Below are positions 4,641 through 43,010 of a DNA stretch of 43,151 bases, one piece after another. The stretch comes from Bacilli bacterium. GTDB lineage: Bacteria; Bacillota_I; Bacilli_A; RF39; UBA660. The stretch covers positions 1 to 43,151 of the forward strand of contig JAFSEX010000018.1 in the NCBI GenBank assembly GCA_017435465.1, given 5' to 3'. Below the pieces are notes generated by a model that saw nothing but the letters and a program-made list of their open reading frames with translations, was not told where the DNA came from and made no database searches. The position numbers and the translations under genes were made by a program. The stretch's first letter is position 1; each line of letters opens with the position of its first letter.

Positions 4641-5507
4641 TCAATTATTATCTATAAATTTTTTTATATAATTGATAGTATTTGTAAAATTAATGTAATC
4701 TACATCAAACCAATTTATTTTTAATTGATGATTAAAAAATGTATATTGTCTTTTAGCATATCTCCTAGAGTTCTTTTTAATAAGCTCAATAGCCTCTTCC
4801 AAATTAATTTCTTCATCAAAATATTTATATAATTCTTTATATCCAATACCTGTCATAATTGCTTTACTTCTTATATTATTATCATATAGATTTTTTGTTT
4901 CTTCTAATAATCCATTATTTATCATTTTATCTACTCTATTATTAATTATTTTATATAAGTTTTCTCTATTAGTAGTTAATCCAATAAATATTGCATCATA
5001 TAATAATTTATCAGTAACAGTTGTTTCACTTGTTTTATTTAGTGCACGAATAACTCTTTTTCGATTGTTCTTATGAATATCAGTATCTGGATATTTTTTT
5101 AATAATAATTCGTATAATTCATCATTAGAATAATTTTCATAATTATTTATTTTATGCTTTTCTTCTTCGAATTTATAATCATAAAGTGCAGCTTTTATAT
5201 ATAATCCTGTTCCACCAACTATGATAACATTTTTACCTCTAGATTGTATTTCCTTAATTTTTTTTCTGCAATCTTTTTGATAATCATAAACTGAATAATC
5301 TTCAGTTACTTCTTTAATATCAAATAGATGGTGAGGAATATTTTCTTTTTCCTCTTCTGTTACTTTCGCACTTCCAATATTTAATTCTTTATAAATTTGA
5401 ATACTATCCCCATTAATTATTTCAGCATTATAAATTTTAGACAGTTCAATACTTAATTTTGTTTTGCCAACTCCTGTTGGCCCTACTATTACTATTATTT
5501 TAGACAT
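4641..5507 (-). CDS. miaA: tRNA dimethylallyltransferase MiaA
   Basis: MiaA adds a dimethylallyl group to the N6 of A37 in tRNAs reading codons that start with U. The P-loop GPTGVGKT is near the N-terminus (residues 9-16 of the 288-residue form), followed by the typical NGDSIQIYKELNIGSAKVT and the PHHLFDI segment, then IVGGTGLYIKAALYD. The C-terminal RRYAKRQYTFF segment is also typical. The start is placed at 5507: AGAGGA sits eight bases before this ATG but touches the earlier in-frame ATG at 5516. With this start the gene overlaps the rnhB stop by eight bases, so translation is probably coupled. Confidence 0.96.
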   Translation of the reverse strand: MSKIIVIVGPTGVGKTKLSIELSKIYNAEIINGDSIQIYKELNIGSAKVTEEEKENIPHHLFDIKEVTEDYSVYDYQKDCRKKIKEIQSRGKNVIIVGGTGLYIKAALYDYKFEEEKHKINNYENYSNDELYELLLKKYPDTDIHKNNRKRVIRALNKTSETTVTDKLLYDAIFIGLTTNRENLYKIINNRVDKMINNGLLEETKNLYDNNIRSKAIMTGIGYKELYKYFDEEINLEEAIELIKKNSRRYAKRQYTFFNHQLKINWFDVDYINFTNTINYIKKFIDNN

Positions 5508-7700: not shown

Positions 7701-7856
7701 TTAATTCCAACCTAACAGAAATACAACTCCCGCTATAATAATTCCAACAACAATCTCAATTATTATAAGCGCTATTTTCTTTTCTTCTTTAGTATTTAAT
7801 TTATTGTTATTACCAACTACAGATTTTTGAATTTTATTATTATTACCTATTTTCAT
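7701..7856 (-). CDS. 51-residue single-pass membrane protein overlapping the AbiTii gene
   Basis: The ATG at 7856 lies inside the last codons of the AbiTii gene in another frame and the ORF ends at a TAA at 7701. The N-terminus, IGNNNKIQKSVVGNNNKLN, repeats the IGDNNVIKDSVVGDNN motif at the end of the AbiTii protein. A charged linker and one strong hydrophobic helix (about residues 28-48, ALIIIEIVVGIIIAGVVFLL) follow. Because AbiTii-like proteins often continue into such Asn-rich repeats and membrane helices, this is probably the natural membrane tail, either split off by a frameshift or made as a separate coupled subunit. It is too short for routine gene calling. Confidence 0.6.
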   Translation of the reverse strand: MKIGNNNKIQKSVVGNNNKLNTKEEKKIALIIIEIVVGIIIAGVVFLLGWN

Positions 7857-8517
7857 TATTATCACCTACCACAGAATCTTTAATAACATTATTATCCCCA
7901 ATAATAACCGAGTTATCATTATAAATTACAGACTCAATTTTTTCTATGACAGCATTTCTTTTTTCTATATCAGAAAAATCAATATATAAATCATCAAGAT
8001 TCCCATAATTACTTTCTAATTCTTTAAAAATTATTAAACATTTGTCTTTGATTTTTGCCATCATATTACTATATGAATACATACTTAACTTGCTATGTGC
8101 ACGAATTACAGTTCCATTAGAAACTTTATAATGGTTAACAAGAACTGTATTCGCCTCCATACACAAACAATGATCTTCTATTTGTTCTTCTGCCTTAGCC
8201 ATATGCATAATAGTAGAAACCGGTGACGTTATTTTTGCAGAACTAAAAAGTTCAAGTGCTTCTTTATCAACTATTGGAATATTTACATTACTATAAACTG
8301 CATATCCTACCTGAAGGTCTCCAATTAAAATAGCATTAAGCTTTCTATAATCAGGAACATCTTTTTCAGATAAATACCCAGAAAGTTCACTATTTACCCA
8401 CTTTATTATTTCTTCACTATCAATATCTTCTAACATAAATGATAAGCTTTCTAACGCTTGTAATACATTAATTTTATCCATTATCAAATCTTTTATAACC
8501 TTACTTCTTTTTTTCAT
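7843..8517 (-). CDS. AbiTii-domain protein (abortive-infection type)
   Basis: The 224-residue protein matches the pattern of the AbiTii domain: KVIKDLIMDKINVLQALESL, then a WVNSELSGY segment and DVPDYRKLNAILIGDLQV. The domain was named for association with abortive phage infection; its biochemistry is not established. The C-terminus carries IIGDNNVIKDSVVGDNN, an Asn/Gly turn repeat continued in the overlapping membrane ORF. A ribosome site AAAGGAAG precedes the ATG at 8517. It follows an unknown gene by 22 bases, so the two are probably cotranscribed. Family assignment rests on motif memory, not on a search. Confidence 0.7.
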   Translation of the reverse strand: MKKRSKVIKDLIMDKINVLQALESLSFMLEDIDSEEIIKWVNSELSGYLSEKDVPDYRKLNAILIGDLQVGYAVYSNVNIPIVDKEALELFSSAKITSPVSTIMHMAKAEEQIEDHCLCMEANTVLVNHYKVSNGTVIRAHSKLSMYSYSNMMAKIKDKCLIIFKELESNYGNLDDLYIDFSDIEKRNAVIEKIESVIYNDNSVIIGDNNVIKDSVVGDNNENR

Positions 8518-9348: not shown

Positions 9349-10577
9349 TCACCACTTTATACTATTTTTATAATCTATCTCTACTTTACCATTTTCATAT
9401 ACATATATTTTATTAATGTTTTGTTCAACTAATTCTTTAGTTAATTCTTTTACATCTTTGTTTAATCTATGTTTTAAATCTTCTAAAACAATTCCTTCTA
9501 GCATAGATTTAACAATTGAATGACTACTGCTACACTTTTTATTTCTATAGTAGTTATTGCAATAATAGTATTCATTATATTTAGCTTTTCTCTTATAAAA
9601 CTTACTACCACAATCAGGACATTTTAAATATCTTAATAGAATATCATCTGACTTTAACATAGTTGGACTATATTCTAACATTCTTTTAACTGTTTCAAAA
9701 TCATTTTTGCTAATTATTGGTTCATGTGTATTTTCAACTAATATCCAATCTTCTTTTTTAGTTTTTACTCTCTTATCTAATCTTCTAATAGGTTTCTTTA
9801 TTTTTCCTTGACACATATTTCCAATATAAACTTCATTAGTAAGAATTTCCCTAATCATATTTTGAGTCCATTCTTTAGCAACTTAGTAGATTTACTTGTT
9901 ACTTTAATAACTTCAGCTTTATATTTAGAAGGTGGTAATGTCTTTTCCTTATTTAATGTATCTACTATTTCTTTTCTACTTTTACATTCCAAAGTCATAG
10001 CAAATATTCTTCTAACAATATTAGCTGCATAATCATCAATAATAAATTTATGACAATCTTCAGGATCTTTTAAATATCCATAAGGAGCTGATACACCAAT
10101 AAAATCGCCTTTATCTTGTTGCATATGTTTTATTGTTGCAACCTTGTTCGAAATATCAATAGCATAATATTCATAAGTTAAGTTTAATAAAGCAAATTCT
10201 AAACTATCAGTGTAGTTTTTTGTTTTTAAACTATCTAATTTATCATTAATTGAAATAAATCTTATATTGTGTTCTGGAAACGATTCACCTAAATATACTT
10301 TTACCCATCCTGAATCTCTTCCAAATCTAGACATATCTTTAACAATAACACAATTTATTTTCTTTTTAACAATATCAAAACACATTTGAACGAATTCTGG
10401 TCTATTAAAATTAGTTCCTGTATAACCATTATCAACATAATAATTTACTAATTCAAATTCTTCATTTCCTTTTATATAATTTTTAATTATACTTTTTTGA
10501 TTTTTAATACTATCAGATTCACTATAATTATCATCTTTTGATAATCTTATATAAGCACCAACTTTGTATTTTACCAT
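9349..10577 (-). pseudogene. Large serine recombinase, one frameshift
   Basis: Two frames together give one recombinase. The first (to about 9855) has the resolvase domain: YIRLSKDD with the nucleophile Ser, DNGYTGTNFNRPEF, and KDMSRFGRDS with the catalytic Arg residues, then the start of the recombinase domain (YGYLKDPEDCHKF). The second (from about 9858, another frame) continues with MIREILTNEVYIGNM and a zinc ribbon CPDCGSKF...YYCNNYYRNKKC. Reading one base differently near 9882 joins them smoothly through KEWTQNMIREI, so a single missing A in an A-run is likely. The joined product is about 410 residues, somewhat short for TnpX-like enzymes. Start at ATG 10577 (AGGA upstream) rather than GTG 10586. 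This marks the island as a former mobile element. Confidence 0.85.
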
Positions 10578-10612
10578 ATGTTTCACTTCCTATTTATATT
10601 GTACCATAGAAA

Positions 10613-11301: not shown

Positions 11302-12354
11302 TTATCTTTTATCACTCACATCAAGTTTTTCAAGTTCATTTATATATTTATCAAAATCACTAAGATATATTTGATCTTGTATAATTCTATATTTTTCAAA
11401 TTCAGATTCCGCTTTATCACAAGCAATTTTATGTGAAATTTTTCCGGCATCTTGTAATATTTCTCTATCAGTCAGTTTTAAAAACTCATCTAATCTATTA
11501 GACCAATCTTCCATAGTCATTGGAATATGTCTTATTGCCCTACTTTCAGCCAAATCAAGATATGCTGATACGATTCTTCTTAATGAATATAATTCTTCTT
11601 CGCTTAAATAATTTTTGGCAATTACAACATCACTTTTAATTATTTTACCTTTTGGTGCATCAGACCAATTAGTAAGTCCCATATGTTCTTTATTTGAATC
11701 AACTCTATTATATATAATTTCTGCCGCTGTATTACCAGTTACTGCATAATGCATTTTGTTTTGAACTTTTTTAAAGAATTCTATAGTAGTTTTTGAGTTT
11801 CTATCATAATCAATACTAGTTGCATATATATCTGTTACTTTTTGATAAAATCTTCTTTCAGATAGCCTTATTTCTCTAATTCTTTCAAGTAATTCATCAA
11901 AATATTTTTCAGTTAAAATAGAACCACTATTTTTAATTCTTTCATCATCCATTGCAAAACCTTTAATAGTATATTCCTTTACAATTTCATTTGCCCATTT
12001 TCTGAATTGAACAGCTCTTTCATTATCCACTTTAAAACCTAAAGCAATGATCATTTGTAAATTATAGTGAACAACATCTCTTGTAACTTCTCTATTTCCT
12101 TCTTTTTGAACTATTCGAAATTTTCGAATAGTTGAATCTTCGTCCAACTCACTATCATTATATATTTTTTTTATATGATAATTTATTGTATTTATTTCTA
12201 CATTATATAAAGTAGACAACATTTTTTGAGTAAGCCAAATGTTCTCATCTTCATATCTTACCTCAATTGCTTCTTTATCATCTCCAGTTGCAGCAATAAA
12301 AGTCAAATATTCTGCTGCACTAGATCTAATTGTAACTTCATTTTTTTTCTTCAT
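11302..12354 (-). CDS. RhuM-family protein, copy 1, with an in-frame palindrome
   Basis: The 350-residue protein matches the virulence RhuM family: EVRYEDENIWLTQKMLSTLY, then a winged-helix-like region (NVEINTINYHIKKIYND), the variable STIRKFRIV at residues 74-82, VQKEGNREV, YNLQMIIALGFKV, FRKWA, and a long C-terminal helical part (RLSERRFYQKVTDIYATSID). Family members are common in islands and near restriction systems; the function is unknown. The DNA for residues 75-82 is a perfect palindrome (see 12109-12133). Its paralog at 14636 is very similar in the C-terminal half and more divergent in the N-terminal DNA-binding part. GGAGGT precedes the ATG. Its leader resembles that of the KilA-N gene. 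Confidence 0.88.
   Translation of the reverse strand: MKKKNEVTIRSSAAEYLTFIAATGDDKEAIEVRYEDENIWLTQKMLSTLYNVEINTINYHIKKIYNDSELDEDSTIRKFRIVQKEGNREVTRDVVHYNLQMIIALGFKVDNERAVQFRKWANEIVKEYTIKGFAMDDERIKNSGSILTEKYFDELLERIREIRLSERRFYQKVTDIYATSIDYDRNSKTTIEFFKKVQNKMHYAVTGNTAAEIIYNRVDSNKEHMGLTNWSDAPKGKIIKSDVVIAKNYLSEEELYSLRRIVSAYLDLAESRAIRHIPMTMEDWSNRLDEFLKLTDREILQDAGKISHKIACDKAESEFEKYRIIQDQIYLSDFDKYINELEKLDVSDKR
12109..12133. repeat. Perfect 12-bp-arm palindrome inside RhuM copy 1
   Basis: The left arm AACTATTCGAAA (12109-12120) is exactly complementary in reverse to 12122-12133, with a single centre base at 12121. On the coding strand it encodes TIRKFRIV. It lies mid-gene and has no T-run, so it is not a terminator. 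Confidence 0.95.
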
Positions 12355-14635: not shown

Positions 14636-15652
14636 CTATCCTTCAGTTTCCTCTAATAACAAATCAAAGTCTGATTTATATAATTTATCTTGTTTTATTC
14701 TATATTTTTCAAATTCAGTTAATGCTTTATCGCAAGCTATTTCATGTGATATTTTACCTGCATCATTTAATATATCCCTATCATCGGATAATAAAAATTT
14801 ATCTATTCTAGTTGCCCAATCTTCCATTGTCATAGGAATATGTCTTCTTGCTCTATTTTCAGCAATTTCTAAAAAGGCACTTACAATTCCTTCTAAATCT
14901 TGAAGTTCATCTTTTGATAAATAATTCTTAGCAATTACAACATCTGATTCCATAATTTTACCATTAGGAGCTTTTTTCCAAGAAGTAAGCCCCATATTTT
15001 CTTTTTCAAAATCTGCTCTACTATAAATAATTTCTGCTGCCGTTTGGCGAGATACTGCATAATGCATTTTATTTTGAACTTTTTTAAAGAATTCGATTGA
15101 TATTGGAGATTTAGAATCATAATCAATACTAGTTGCATATATATCCGTTATTTTTTGATAAAATCTTCGCTCAGATAGTCTTATTTCTCTTATTTCTTCT
15201 AATAACTTTTCAAAATAATCTTTATCTATAAATGACCCGTTTTTCATTCTTTCTTTATCTAGTACATATCCTTGGATAGTGAATGTTTTTAATACATTAG
15301 TTGCCCATCTTCTAAATTGAGTCGCTCTTAAAGAATTCACTCTATATCCTACTGAAATAATTGCATCTAAATTATAAAATTCTACTTGTCTTTTTACTTG
15401 TCTATTTCCTTCTTTTTGAACTAATTCCATTTTGGAATAAGTTGAATTTTTATCTAACTCTTTTTCGTTATAAATATTAATTAGATGCTTTGCTATTGCA
15501 GGTTGTTCTACATTAAACAATTCTGCCATAGCTTTTTGAGTCATCCATAAAGTTTCATTTTCGTATCTTACTTGTATACCTTTATCTTTTTCTTGTACTT
15601 TAAATGTTATAAATTCTTCAGCACTACTTCTAATTATTAAATCTTTTGCCAT
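14636..15652 (-). CDS. RhuM-family protein, copy 2, with an in-frame palindrome
   Basis: The 338-residue protein has the same architecture as the gene at 11302: VRYENETLWMTQKAMAELF, a winged-helix-like region (NVEQPAIAKHLINIYNE), the variable STYSKMELV at residues 70-78, VQKEGNRQV, YNLDAIISVGYRV, TQFRRWA, and the conserved RLSERRFYQKITDIYATSID half. The helix before the variable peptide differs strongly from that of copy 1 although the C-terminal half is highly similar. The DNA for residues 71-78 is an imperfect palindrome at the same codons as in copy 1. A GGGG ribosome site precedes the ATG. It is followed closely by the SWIM gene. Confidence 0.88.
   Translation of the reverse strand: MAKDLIIRSSAEEFITFKVQEKDKGIQVRYENETLWMTQKAMAELFNVEQPAIAKHLINIYNEKELDKNSTYSKMELVQKEGNRQVKRQVEFYNLDAIISVGYRVNSLRATQFRRWATNVLKTFTIQGYVLDKERMKNGSFIDKDYFEKLLEEIREIRLSERRFYQKITDIYATSIDYDSKSPISIEFFKKVQNKMHYAVSRQTAAEIIYSRADFEKENMGLTSWKKAPNGKIMESDVVIAKNYLSKDELQDLEGIVSAFLEIAENRARRHIPMTMEDWATRIDKFLLSDDRDILNDAGKISHEIACDKALTEFEKYRIKQDKLYKSDFDLLLEETEG
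15419..15443. repeat. Near-perfect palindrome inside RhuM copy 2
   Basis: The arms 15419-15430 and 15432-15443 pair at 10 of 12 positions around a centre base at 15431. It has the same 25-base span, same frame and same codons as 12109-12133, but a different sequence (arm AACTAATTCCAT). Four arm positions differ from copy 1 with the matching change on the other arm. Confidence 0.93.
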
Positions 15653-15761
15653 ATTCTTGCCCCTTTCTAAAGTTTTCCTTAAGTCGTAATTACCTCTATT
15701 TATTTAAATTTTTATTATTTTTTTGCCTATTAAATGTAAAAAGAAATCTAATTTAAAACCT

Positions 15762-15836
15762 TTATTTATAAGCATTTACAGGAAGTTTTTCATAAGTCGG
15801 TATTTCCCAGTTGATGTTTGTTTTATTTTCATTCAT
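15762..15836 (-). CDS. 24-codon small ORF
   Basis: ATG 15836 to TAA 15762 encodes MNENKTNINWEIPTYEKL plus six residues. It has an ideal ribosome site (GGAGTGATATC) and overlaps the preceding ORF by ATGA. Its first nine codons recur at 17024, where a different sequence follows. The family is unknown; it may be a leader or a short conserved peptide of the mobile element. Confidence 0.4.
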   Translation of the reverse strand: MNENKTNINWEIPTYEKLPVNAYK

Positions 15837-15864
15837 GATATCACTCCTTTATTTCTTTCATTAC
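15808..15864. repeat. 57-base direct repeat, copy A (small-ORF start)
   Basis: Aligned without gaps to 16996-17052 with few mismatches. It includes the ribosome site and first codons of a small ORF in both places. The two copies flank the KilA-N gene. Confidence 0.85.
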
Positions 15865-15994
15865 TTGATTTTCTTCTATCTATTTTAATAAAACTTATAT
15901 CATCCACTTCATCAGGATTTATATTTTCAAGTTTAATATTTTTACATTTATTAATTTTTTCTTCTAATTCTTTTATATTATACTTGTTCTTCAT
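15833..15994 (-). CDS. 53-residue protein, likely truncated DUF6870-type
   Basis: The ORF begins at ATG 15994, overlapping the 3' end of the KilA-N gene by 17 bases, and ends in a TGA that overlaps the next ATG. The sequence is charged, with ENINPDEVDDISFIKIDRRK followed by SSNER. It resembles the first half of DUF6870 proteins found next to recombinases in conjugative elements, but the usual C-terminal part (ending in a KNPY-like segment) is absent. It looks truncated, and the identification is tentative. Confidence 0.4.
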   Translation of the reverse strand: MKNKYNIKELEEKINKCKNIKLENINPDEVDDISFIKIDRRKSSNERNKGVIS

Positions 15995-16832
15995 ATTCTT
16001 TACTATCTCCTAATAATTTTATCTTTTCAGCATTATTTAATATATTCAATTGATATTTAGCAATCTGACTTAATATTTCAAATCTTTCTTCTTTACTTTT
16101 TCCTTCTTTAATCATTTCTGCATTATGTGATTCTAAATTTGATAATACAGTTAATTCATTTATTGAAGCAAAATCTCTTATATTAGAAGTTTTTGCTAAA
16201 TCAGGATTTAGTTTTCTCCATTCTTTTGCTGTTGTATTAAATAAAGCTACATTTAAAATATCTGCTTCTTCTGCATATTTCAACCATTCTTTATTTTTAT
16301 GATAATTATTATTAGGTAATATATAGTTTTTAATAGCATCTGTATGTATTAAATAATTGTTTTTTGTTAATATTCTTTTTATATCCCATTCTCTATTTTG
16401 GTTTTCTATTTGTTTTAATCTTTCAAACTCTTTTATTAAATATAATTTAAACATTGGACTAATAGCAGCAGCAAATTCAAACGCAATGTCTTTATGTGCA
16501 TAAGTTCCACCATATTTTCCCATTTTAGAATACATACCAATAGCATTAGTCTTTTCACACCATTCTGATACACTTGGTGTAAATGTTAAGAGTCCAACTT
16601 GTTTTCTAAAGTGTTCAGATTCGAACACTTTAAAATTAGGATTATATAATTGTTCCCAGGCAGTTAAAAAATCTAATGTACTTCGATTACGTAACCAGTT
16701 TCTTATAACATCAGCAGCTCTTGATTTATCACTTTTAGCTTTTGCTATATCAGAAATACAAATATAATCTTTTTCATTTAAATTAGTAACATTTATTTGA
16801 ATATTTTGTACTTCAATTATATTATTTTTCAT
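15978..16832 (-). CDS. KilA-N domain protein with an in-frame palindrome
   Basis: The 284-residue protein matches the KilA-N family of phage and island DNA-binding proteins: YICISDIAKAK, IRNWLRNRSTLDFLTAWEQL, YNPNF, a variable peptide KVFESEHF (residues 68-75), then EKTNAIGMYSKMGKYGGTYA and HKDIAFEFAAAISPMFKLYL. The C-terminal half is helical and includes a conserved-looking region with TAKEWR and ASINELTVLSNLESHN. KilA-N proteins are usually antirepressors or regulators; the target is unknown. The variable peptide is encoded by a palindrome (16607-16632). The gene has its own AGAGGT ribosome site and a leader resembling that of RhuM copy 1. Confidence 0.88.
   Translation of the reverse strand: MKNNIIEVQNIQINVTNLNEKDYICISDIAKAKSDKSRAADVIRNWLRNRSTLDFLTAWEQLYNPNFKVFESEHFRKQVGLLTFTPSVSEWCEKTNAIGMYSKMGKYGGTYAHKDIAFEFAAAISPMFKLYLIKEFERLKQIENQNREWDIKRILTKNNYLIHTDAIKNYILPNNNYHKNKEWLKYAEEADILNVALFNTTAKEWRKLNPDLAKTSNIRDFASINELTVLSNLESHNAEMIKEGKSKEERFEILSQIAKYQLNILNNAEKIKLLGDSKEYEEQV
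16607..16632. repeat. Palindrome inside the KilA-N gene
   Basis: Perfect 10-bp arms (TAAAGTGTTC at 16607-16616, its reverse complement at 16623-16632) around six bases. It encodes KVFESEHF, between the conserved YNPNF and the RKQVG/WCEKTNAIG region. No T-run follows. Confidence 0.93.
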
Positions 16833-16916: not shown

Positions 16917-17004
16917 AAAATATGCATTGTCTAAATTCTCTTAATTCCTTATAAAATAAGTGTTTGTGGAAGGGGTTAAATAAATTGATGTCAAGCAGTT
17001 GATG
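16917..17004. repeat. 88-base direct repeat, copy B
   Basis: Ungapped match to 12760-12847 with about ten mismatches, identical over the last 37 bases. It includes the GGGGTTAAA boundary motif, also seen at about 11290, 12659 and 12816. Confidence 0.95.
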
Positions 17005-17024
17005 TTTGTTTTGTTTTCATTCAT
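16941..17024 (-). CDS. 27-codon small ORF, chimeric with the repeat
   Basis: The ORF starts like the one at 15836 (MNENKTNIN, same GGAGTGATA ribosome site) but after the ninth codon continues as CLTSIYLTPSTNTYFIRN through the 88-base repeat. The sharp switch at this point suggests cassette DNA joined inside an older small ORF. It begins four bases after the stop of the CxxCxxCC gene. Function doubtful. Confidence 0.3.
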   Translation of the reverse strand: MNENKTNINCLTSIYLTPSTNTYFIRN

Positions 17025-17052
17025 ATTATCACTCCTTTATTTCCTTTATCAC
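16996..17052. repeat. 57-base direct repeat, copy B (small-ORF start)
   Basis: Partner of 15808-15864. It covers the end of the CxxCxxCC gene, the ribosome site and the first codons of the small ORF at 17024. It overlaps the end of the 88-base repeat by nine bases. Confidence 0.85.
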
Positions 17053-17505
17053 TTTATATTTTAATTTTTTCATTTTTGTATAATTTCTATCATCTGTATA
17101 GTCTATTATCCAAGGGTTTATCTTCTCAATTAAATCATCAAGATAATCAAAATTATCAACTACTGTATGTTCTTCAATACAACCCAATTGATATAAAACC
17201 AGATAATACTTCGAATCCTTTTTAATAATATCAAACGGATATAATTTACAATCTAAAGGTCTATAATTATATACCTGACATCTTCCGTTTTTTAGAAAAA
17301 TACATTCATTATTATTTAATTTTATTTTATACAAATTATCATCAACAGCATCATAGAAATCATTTCTTTTTAAGATTTTTCTTAGTTTCATTAATTCTTC
17401 TTTGTTTAATACTGGAGCATTAATTCTATCAAATGAAGAACAACATTTTCCACCAGTAAAACAATTAGTACAAACATCATAACATCCATTTTGTATATCT
17501 TGCAT
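17029..17505 (-). CDS. YkgJ-type CxxCxxCC protein (putative zinc/iron-binding)
   Basis: The 158-residue protein has Cys8, Cys12, Cys15, Cys21 and Cys22 at the N-terminus (CYDVCTNCFTGGKCC), then CIFLKNGRCQVYNYRPLDCK and YPFDI, the signature of the YkgJ/UPF0153 CxxCxxCC family thought to bind zinc or an Fe-S cluster. Enzymatic role unknown. A GGGGGA ribosome site precedes the ATG. It stands at the right edge of the island; its end carries one copy of the small-ORF repeat, so it may be cargo or the last native gene. Confidence 0.85.
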   Translation of the reverse strand: MQDIQNGCYDVCTNCFTGGKCCSSFDRINAPVLNKEELMKLRKILKRNDFYDAVDDNLYKIKLNNNECIFLKNGRCQVYNYRPLDCKLYPFDIIKKDSKYYLVLYQLGCIEEHTVVDNFDYLDDLIEKINPWIIDYTDDRNYTKMKKLKYKVIKEIKE

Positions 17506-36352: not shown

Positions 36353-36378
36353 AATGTATAGTACATTGACTATACATT
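36353..36378 (-). terminator. Terminator of the dockerin-cohesin operon
   Basis: A perfect 10-bp stem (AATGTATAGT 36353-36362 with 36369-36378), 6-base loop, then seven T on the minus strand. The stop codon of the cohesin gene overlaps the stem. Confidence 0.85.
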
Positions 36379-37309
36379 AATGTTTTTTCTTTTTAATAAT
36401 CATTATTATTACTCCAATTAAGACAACTAGTCCAATTGAAATAGGAATAATTAAATTTAAGTTTTCCTTTTCTACTATTTCCTCTTGTTCTTCTACATTA
36501 TCTATTTTTTCTTTTTCTCTTTTAACATTTATAGTATATATTTTTTCACTACCATCTTCTGCTTTTACTTTTAATTCAATTTTGTTGTTTCCAACACTTA
36601 AATTATGTTTTCCAAATCCTTCAATTATTGATTTTTCATCTTCTAAAGTACCATTTATTTCAATGCTATCTGTATTATAATCTACAACTAAATCATAAGT
36701 TAATATATCTTTTGAAAAATTAATAGTACCATTACTTAAAGTTAAAGAACTAAGATATGTATTACTTGATTTTTTTGTTTCTTCATCTAATTTTTCAGTA
36801 GTATTATCTTTATTCGAATTATTATTTATTGGTTTTTTATTTGTTTGTTTATTTTCAATTACATATTTAATTGTTTTAGAAGTATCAGTAGATGTTATAT
36901 CTTTTGCACCATCACTTGCAGTTATATTTGAAATACTTATTTTTGTACTTTCATTATTTTGTAATCTCTTATTTTTAAATCTTAATGAAAGAATATTTGT
37001 ACCATTTGTCACTCCAGTTGCTTTATATAATACAAGTGATTTACCTTGTGTTAAACTAAAGTTTTCTAATGGTTCTACTTTTATTAATTCAAGTTTATTA
37101 GTATCATAATTTAGTGTTCCAACTAGACCACATAATCCATTACATGAACCATCAAAATCCACTAAATTATTTACTTGCACATATAATGTTATTTCACTAC
37201 TAAATTTATCATCACCAACTATAGAAGTATCAAAGCTACTAGCACTTACTTTTTCTGAAAATAATAGTAATGATAAAACTGTTGTTAAACATATTAATAT
37301 TTTTTTCAT
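36377..37309 (-). CDS. Membrane-anchored cohesin-domain protein
   Basis: The 310-residue protein has a signal peptide (about 1-23, ending KVSAS), a cohesin-like domain from about 25 to 150 (GLVGTLNYDTNKLELIKVEP, then SLRFKNKRL and ISISNITASDG), a polar linker rich in Asn, Lys and Thr, a cadherin-like beta-sandwich domain (SSLTLSNGTINFSKDILTYD, about 185-265), an acidic stretch and a C-terminal membrane helix with a Lys-rich tail. So it should display a cohesin outside the cell. The gene starts one base inside the stop of the dockerin gene (TAATG) with GAGGTG upstream, and ends in a terminator. Cohesin identification is by pattern, without a search. Confidence 0.78.
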   Translation of the reverse strand: MKKILICLTTVLSLLLFSEKVSASSFDTSIVGDDKFSSEITLYVQVNNLVDFDGSCNGLCGLVGTLNYDTNKLELIKVEPLENFSLTQGKSLVLYKATGVTNGTNILSLRFKNKRLQNNESTKISISNITASDGAKDITSTDTSKTIKYVIENKQTNKKPINNNSNKDNTTEKLDEETKKSSNTYLSSLTLSNGTINFSKDILTYDLVVDYNTDSIEINGTLEDEKSIIEGFGKHNLSVGNNKIELKVKAEDGSEKIYTINVKREKEKIDNVEEQEEIVEKENLNLIIPISIGLVVLIGVIIMIIKKKKH

Positions 37310-42347: not shown

Positions 42348-43010
42348 TCACACTAATTCATATTCTCTAGCAATTATCCTATCATCTGAACAATATTTAA
42401 TTACATATTTATTATTTTGTTTACAAATAATTATACCTATAGTTTTATCTTGATTAAACTTCTTTAAATTTTCATCTATATAATTCATATAAATTTCTAT
42501 TTGTCCAATATGTTCTTTCTTAAGTTCTGTTACCTTTAATTCTACAACTACAAAACAATTATATTCATAATTAAATAAAAGTAAATCTATATAGTTAAAA
42601 GTATTATCTAATCTGATTTTATATTCACTTCCAATAAAACAAAATGAATTACCTAATTCAGTCATAAATGACTCAATATCTTCTAATACTAACTTTTGCA
42701 GTATTTTCTCGGATATAATTTGATAATTATTTTTATTTCTAATCATTATAGGATTTTTCACAAAATCTGCTACACTTGATTTATCCTGTTTAATTAATTT
42801 ATTCTTTGTTTCTTTAGGTAATCTTATATATTCATTACTTTTCACTTTATCCCTAAGTTGTCTAACAGACCAATTATTTAATTCTGTACTTTTTATATAA
42901 TAATTAATTTCTTCTACATTTTCTAAAGACAATAATTCGCAATAATGAGACCAAGATAATTGTGCAGACACTGTCTGCATTTTTTCTCTTAATTCATAAA
43001 ATCTCAGCAT
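42348..43010 (-). CDS. YhcG/DUF1016-type PD-(D/E)XK nuclease, N-terminally truncated
   Basis: The 220-residue protein matches the C-terminal part of the DUF1016/YhcG family: LSWSHYCELLSLENVEEINY, NWSVRQLRDKV, then a nuclease-fold domain with YIDLLLFNYEYNCFVVVELK (D...ExK active-site pattern), QIEIYMNYID and IGIIICKQNN. Full-length members have about 100 more N-terminal residues that are missing here, and there is no ribosome site before the first ATG. So it is probably a 5'-truncated gene. The catalytic domain itself looks intact. DUF1016 proteins occur in mobile elements and defence regions. Confidence 0.8.
   Translation of the reverse strand: MLRFYELREKMQTVSAQLSWSHYCELLSLENVEEINYYIKSTELNNWSVRQLRDKVKSNEYIRLPKETKNKLIKQDKSSVADFVKNPIMIRNKNNYQIISEKILQKLVLEDIESFMTELGNSFCFIGSEYKIRLDNTFNYIDLLLFNYEYNCFVVVELKVTELKKEHIGQIEIYMNYIDENLKKFNQDKTIGIIICKQNNKYVIKYCSDDRIIAREYELV

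Follow-up and report, generated by a model that had tools for sequence, protein, structure and literature searches.

In-frame palindromes co-diversify with the recognition helix of their own proteins: likely operators within KilA-N and RhuM reading frames

A KilA-N domain gene in the window (the whole stretch of 43,151 nucleotides that was analysed) contains an inverted repeat within its coding sequence, which raises the question of whether the palindrome is an accident of the codons or a symmetrical DNA site that the encoded protein itself reads. The gene met the profile requirement for the KilA-N domain family (PF04383; 70 bits against a curated cut-off of 23.8) and the following features were assigned to it:

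15978-16832, minus strand: KilA-N domain gene, 284 aa (Pfam KilA-N 1.8e-19; PADLOC phage-defence candidate PDC-S22, 2.5e-113)
16607-16632, minus strand: in-frame palindrome and proposed operator, TAAAGTGTTC GAATCT GAACACTTTA, with compensated changes in homologs
16692-16727, minus strand: predicted recognition helix KSRAADVIRNWL, codons 36-47, covarying with the palindrome (assigned from the AF2 helix 36-47 and from coupling)

The palindrome lies approximately 200 bp inside the open reading frame and encodes K68-F75. Read on the forward strand it is TAAAGTGTTC-AGATTC-GAACACTTTA, with 10-bp perfect arms around six central bases, as an earlier sequence-only reading had reported. It is real, yet borderline when judged by the single gene, with about one palindrome of this information content expected per window at 24% GC (our own arithmetic) and a better palindrome arising in 1 of 60 permutations of the gene's codons. 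Separately, a 120-nt direct repeat (72% identical) was observed on both sides of the gene, at 15753-15872 and 16941-17060, and it is possible that the gene is a cassette dropped beside a duplicated short gene start.

Three further genes of the window carry palindromes in frame:

14636-15652, minus strand: RhuM gene, 338 aa (Pfam Virulence_RhuM 8.6e-110; PADLOC PDC-S05)
15419-15443, minus strand: in-frame palindrome AACTTATTCCAAAATGGAATTAGTT of that gene, with one T.T mismatch in the arms
15485-15511, minus strand: recognition-helix codons VEQPAIAKH of that gene (Pro type; pairs with a TTCC/GGAA core)
11302-12354, minus strand: RhuM gene, 350 aa (Pfam Virulence_RhuM 1e-112; PADLOC PDC-S05)
12109-12133, minus strand: in-frame palindrome AACTATTCGAAAATTTCGAATAGTT of that gene, with 12-bp perfect arms
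12175-12204, minus strand: codons 51-60 NVEINTINYH of that gene, start of the recognition helix (NTINYH type; pairs with a TTCGAA core)
42348-43010, minus strand: DUF1016/YhcG-like gene, the family named from sequence motifs and not by profile search
42963-42979, minus strand: in-frame palindrome TGCAGACAGTGTCTGCA of that gene, compensated in homologs
42849-42866, minus strand: codons 49-54 VRQLRD of that gene, within residues 45-55 that covary with the palindrome

Both RhuM genes met family membership (PF13310; 366 and 376 bits against a curated cut-off of 33.7). The sequence-only reading had counted three of three island genes with palindromes and concluded that chance was unlikely. The count held loosely, given the T.T mismatch at 15419-15443, and three genes in one island were by themselves too weak a basis for the inference; it was the homologs that decided the matter. 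It had also named many equally strong palindromes in unrelated genes as a result that would refute it. Only 3 of 41 window ORFs outscored all 60 of their codon shuffles, two of them being the RhuM gene at 11302-12354 and the DUF1016-like gene, whose palindrome proved to be an instance of the same phenomenon. The third was the gene at 36377-37309, with its best palindrome, AGGAAAACTTAAATTTAATTATTCCT, at residue 281.

Homologs were sampled by searching genome contigs, by a search across the phylum and, for RhuM, by a search across the order together with targeted fetching. Of KilA-N, 73 genes were usable, comprising 44 distinct segments; of RhuM, 112 were usable, comprising 85. The RhuM set came mostly from one bacterial order, in which 125 of 193 genomes have RhuM, and plasmid records from other phyla agreed with it. 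Nearly all KilA-N and RhuM homologs displayed a palindrome at the same codons, with arms that differed by compensated pair changes, as in these examples:

TTTTAAACCCGTCGAATTCGACGGGTTTAAAA: second copy, from the host genome (L002)
TTTTAAAGGTGTCGAATTCGACACCTTTAAAA: Riemerella (L024)
TTAATTATGGCGAATTCGCCATAATTAA: a further homolog (L031)
AATGTTATGGAATTCCATAACATT: a further homolog (L042)

Enrichment was overwhelming when compared to controls in which synonymous codons were shuffled while each protein and its codon usage were held fixed, a check that the earlier reading had itself proposed: 560 paired cells were observed in KilA-N against 383±9 after shuffling (z about 20), and 902 in RhuM against 684±12. 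Treated as a structure, the KilA-N palindrome had 89.8% of its cells paired, with 106 double-changed compared to 35±6 in the shuffles, and most of the pairing was lost when one arm was displaced by one base. Within its gene the site outranked every other palindrome in 40 of 44 KilA-N and 69 of 85 RhuM segments. Within the KilA-N family the innermost A-T pair never varied and the next pair was kept in 91%, while some members had broken palindromes (L041, Aureispira) or partial arms (L018, L176). A chance palindrome is thus excluded by the homologs, though the test on a single gene would not exclude it. We also rejected a mobile palindromic insertion, of which the palindromic elements of Rickettsia are an example, because the occurrence of different arms at the same codons across several phyla fits a maintained site and not a recent insertion.

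Protein columns most associated with the palindrome were residues 38, 40, 41, 44, 45 and 48 in KilA-N and in RhuM included 52-56, 58 and 59 (inner bases) and 85-92 (outer base). AlphaFold (AF2) models, all of monomers, placed the coupled residues within the second helix of the predicted helix-turn-helix or at its beginning (HTH; KilA-N 36-47; RhuM 54-66), with RhuM residues 85-92 falling in the predicted wing. Partial Mantel tests linked the palindrome core to the helix when distances in the C-terminal domain, in the linker and in the remaining N-terminus were controlled (r = 0.595 in RhuM and 0.476 in KilA-N; 0 of 500 permutations each), with r of about 0 between the core and every other protein region. 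As the linker between helix and palindrome was itself uncoupled, linkage through short recombination tracts is not the reason for the association. The core could also be predicted from the gene with the nearest helix, using only donors with C-terminal identity below 60%: in RhuM 80% of bases were right compared to 40% at random, with the exact 6-mer recovered in 43% compared to 2%, and in KilA-N 74% of bases were right compared to 42%. Other protein regions predicted the core barely above chance.

For RhuM the association could be written as a code. TTCC/GGAA cores occurred with xxPAIxKH helices (Pro55 in 17/17), TTCGAA with NTINYH (10/10), TTCGG/CCGAA with STxxEH, TGCA with DRSGI/DRTVI, TAAG with NNI, CAAG with QN and CGAG with DN. 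On a tree built from the C-terminal domain only, the core changed at least 42 times and core and helix switched together repeatedly; TTCC and Pro55 were found together in 11/11 independent pairs (P = 0.001) and CGAG and Asp in 8/8 (P = 0.008), with seven independent pairs for and none against in the case of TAAG (P = 0.016) and about 5.5 of 6 for TGCA (P = 0.03). Pairs were too few for TCGG, CAAG and TCGA, which stand outside the pair tests. Plasmid-borne RhuM genes of other phyla, excluded from the code table, agreed with it: QN with CAAG in Roseomonas of 66% GC, CSTDN with CCGAG in Phocaeicola and AAISKH with TTCC in Aeromonas. An AT-rich AACT...AGTT palindrome was kept even in genes of 65-66% GC.

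The peptide encoded by the palindrome could be separated from its DNA in three RhuM genes (L169, L170 and L173), where the palindrome is shifted 8 nt downstream into another reading frame and encodes FGISEF or FGNSEF. These genes retain the KSTINEH helix and the TTCGGAA-TTCCGAA site, like a relative (L165) with the palindrome at the usual place, which indicates that the helix follows the DNA and not the peptide. The core-helix link likewise remained when peptide distance was controlled (0.49 in RhuM, 0.31 in KilA-N), and the link between peptide and helix given the core was 0.18 and 0.21, respectively. The helix boundaries used in the coupling tests were picked after a coupling scan of the same data; independent support is consequently strongest from the plasmid genes kept out of the sample, the palindromes in a shifted frame and the two further families in which coupling was found. 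Three further RhuM genes (L167, L172 and L174) had half-changed palindromes (left CCGAG, right CTTGG) and a mixed helix, TTDNISYH, and may be evolutionary intermediates between the CGAG and CAAG types.

Palindromes of the same kind were present in three more families, with ORF6N and Bro-N named from profile searches and DUF1016 recognised by sequence motifs. In nearly all of 29 ORF6N genes the LRSQ motif coincided with a palindrome, and when the N-terminus was scanned only two coupling peaks emerged, one at the helix (residues 42-50, r up to 0.55) and one at the palindrome. In most of 30 DUF1016 homologs compensated palindromes were detected near the N-terminus, and coupling outside the motif peaked at SVRQLR, downstream of the palindrome. 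Among Bro-N genes 15 of 26 outscored all codon shuffles, chiefly in DinD-like and related subgroups, and classical Bro-N genes had weak palindromes. The dinD gene of E. coli K-12 MG1655 (L278:3761-4585) carries ACCATTTCGAGGAGATCCTCGATATGGT in frame at codons 59-68 (nt 176-203 of the gene), with a palindrome score of 22.0 against at most 17.4 for the other tested genes of the 10-kb stretch. Results on helix coupling cover KilA-N, RhuM, ORF6N and DUF1016, with Bro-N outside that set.

Computation thus shows that the palindrome is under DNA-level selection and co-diversifies with the recognition helix of its host protein, and that across hundreds of relatives in five families the site keeps changing while remaining symmetrical, with helix coupling in the four families tested. 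This covariation in KilA-N, RhuM, ORF6N and DUF1016 gives strong computational support, with binding unproven, to the suggestion of the sequence-only reading that these genes hold their own symmetrical DNA target within the coding sequence. Its alternative, an mRNA hairpin used for control, is unsupported, there being no G.U preference and the bases tracking a DNA-reading helix. The design it described, a palindrome following the DNA-binding part, is not general, as the DUF1016 palindrome precedes the coupled helix.

We infer that each gene is likely to carry the palindromic operator of its own product within the reading frame and probably to be autorepressed by roadblock. Binding, dimerisation and autorepression are all inferred, without binding, footprint or expression data. 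That the protein binds its own palindrome can be held with considerable confidence; autorepression, granted binding, is favoured only by a narrow margin. In the proposed mechanism, a protein dimer would place an HTH recognition helix into each half-site, with the RhuM wing probably contacting the outer bases, and protein bound about 200 bp downstream of the start codon would most likely block RNA polymerase and limit its own synthesis. Such a feedback loop would be independent of the promoter and would move with the gene. Any change of the recognition helix would require both arms to follow, so that helix and operator would diversify together and paralogs would remain distinct.

A second copy of the palindrome, which the earlier reading had proposed to look for, was absent from the host genome with up to three mismatches for the two sites tested, and upstream of the genes own-site matches were no better than swapped sites (13.03 compared to 13.08; 13.19 compared to 13.28). 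The lack of a second copy upstream or elsewhere in the host genome indicates that the site serves no regulon. In one record (L042), a palindrome, AATGTTATCGAATTCGATAACGTT, was observed approximately 39 nt upstream of the start of the KilA-N gene at 5001 and resembles the AATGTTATGGAATTCCATAACATT of the neighbouring paralog; it is the only case seen of what might be a second operator. Between RhuM paralogs of one genome, identical sites were found in 0 of 55 pairs (1.05 expected) and the mean distance between sites was 6.18 compared to 5.63 expected (P = 0.024), a modest effect.

The nearest demonstrated precedent is C.Kpn2I, which has its binding site within its own ORF and was shown to act as an elongation roadblock (PMC6237814); its authors considered such a loop suited to horizontal transfer (PMC6237814). 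The genes described here resemble it in that their own ORFs carry a covarying palindrome, a putative binding site, from which binding and roadblock are inferred. C.Kpn2I is, however, a small restriction-modification controller that according to its paper is not of these domain families (PMC6237814), and its site lies at the ORF start, whereas the single palindrome here is internal and diversifies along with the helix across families. LacI likewise regulates itself by a roadblock at an operator, O3 (PMC3711431), although that is a single regulator without a family-wide, in-frame, co-diversifying operator (PMC3711431).

The main rival to an embedded operator is a self-recognition tag, in which the protein acts on foreign DNA or invading mobile elements and the cognate palindrome in its own gene inactivates it or signals self. 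A variant, graded jointly with it, has the resident protein recognise incoming copies of the same type by their palindrome. Both are possible, and no interference activity has been shown. Several observations fit: the KilA-N and RhuM genes score as PADLOC phage-defence candidates, the KilA-N gene adjoins the integrase in a Staphylococcus phage (EW) and a Streptococcus satellite phage (Javan279), as bstA adjoins a CI-like repressor, RhuM is embedded in type I restriction-modification operons in Aeromonas and Roseomonas, and the sites are single-copy with paralog sites within a genome differing beyond expectation. The aba element of the BstA system offers a parallel, since a protein with a KilA-N-like N-terminus, a resemblance at the level of the domain only, is there paired with a DNA element that overlaps its own gene, and the effect is DNA-based and specific to the cognate variant (PMC8585504). 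Against this, the 63-bp aba element spans the start codon of its gene and contains direct CCCGCC repeats. The KilA-N palindrome fails a description of roughly 63 bp across the start codon with terminal direct repeats, being an inverted repeat approximately 200 bp into the ORF, and bstA lacks any palindrome in frame (best score 14.5 compared to a shuffle mean of 14.4), which excludes BstA from the same palindrome class. The paralog effect is also modest. The data do not separate autorepression from self-recognition, and both roles may coexist.

The remaining rivals fare worse. A hairpin in mRNA or single-stranded DNA, serving translational control or as an RNA target, would account for compensated arms around a short centre, but mismatches at inner pairs were 36 G.T and 36 A.C on the coding strand where an RNA stem would tolerate G.T far more, a hairpin loop would not need the invariant innermost A-T and 91% kept next pair of KilA-N, and a folded stem would not need to track the HTH recognition helix; we consider it very unlikely. 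Equally improbable is that the coevolution takes place inside the protein, between the peptide and the recognition helix, with the palindrome merely following. The peptide does belong to the same DNA-binding domain and could touch the helix, yet palindromicity is far above that of codon shuffles of the same peptides, the core-helix link survives the peptide control but only a weak link of peptide to helix is left once the core is given, the palindrome moved by +8 nt has another frame and peptide with the same helix and core, and AT-rich palindromes are kept in hosts of 65% GC. Template-switch repair between the arms could keep a palindrome perfect without selection, and replication is known to perfect quasi-palindromes. 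It explains neither the tracking of the recognition helix nor the same-codon position in each family and is all but excluded as the sole cause, though it may be the mutational route.

Although an embedded operator remains the preferred reading, the PADLOC candidacies and the membership of DUF1016 in a described PD-(D/E)XK nuclease family make a role beyond autoregulation likely for these genes. The PADLOC models concerned (PDC-S22 for the KilA-N gene, PDC-S05 for both RhuM genes) name protein families and include no embedded DNA site, and the literature searched, which left out most subscription papers, yielded no account of palindromes in frame within these families. A bolder reading, which we offer only as a possibility, is that unrelated families (KilA-N, RhuM, ORF6N, DinD-like Bro-N and DUF1016) embed a helix-read palindrome in their own codons as a tag that decides between self and non-self. 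If so, the gene would be inseparable from its identity tag, many mutually distinct types would coexist, and the tag would act in mobile-element conflicts and restriction-modification operons. These very common, poorly understood genes (RhuM, KilA-N, ORF6N, DinD-like and DUF1016) would gain a concrete, testable molecular target and an entry into how they tell self from other. Since each gene discloses its own recognition site, thousands of helix-site pairs would be readable from sequence and could serve as naturally occurring training data for a code of protein-DNA recognition, and in-frame motifs such as the LRSQ of ORF6N would be explained partly as DNA-level constraints.

The N-terminal domain of the KilA-N model has the fold of the KilA-N/APSES domains of Mbp1 and PCG2 (Mbp1 1bm8, Z 8.3, rmsd 2.5 over 86; PCG2-DNA 4ux5, Z 8.0); to our knowledge these fungal regulators have no embedded site. 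DdrC of Deinococcus radiodurans was the best or near-best match among solved structures for the models of both KilA-N 15978-16832 (mfe1f98aaa477; Z 6.4, rmsd 3.9 over 81) and RhuM 11302-12354 (m9bc9a56d5964; Z 8.2 but rmsd 11.9 over 190). In the fold search of the C-terminal parts only DdrC recurred, with superposition too weak to name a function, and the absence of other matches there is uninformative. The matches, which rest on predicted models, tentatively hint at an architecture common to the KilA-N and RhuM proteins. Finally, an AbiTii-domain gene (7843-8517; Pfam 5.4e-21) was observed in the same island, with split serine recombinase genes nearby (9349-10586).
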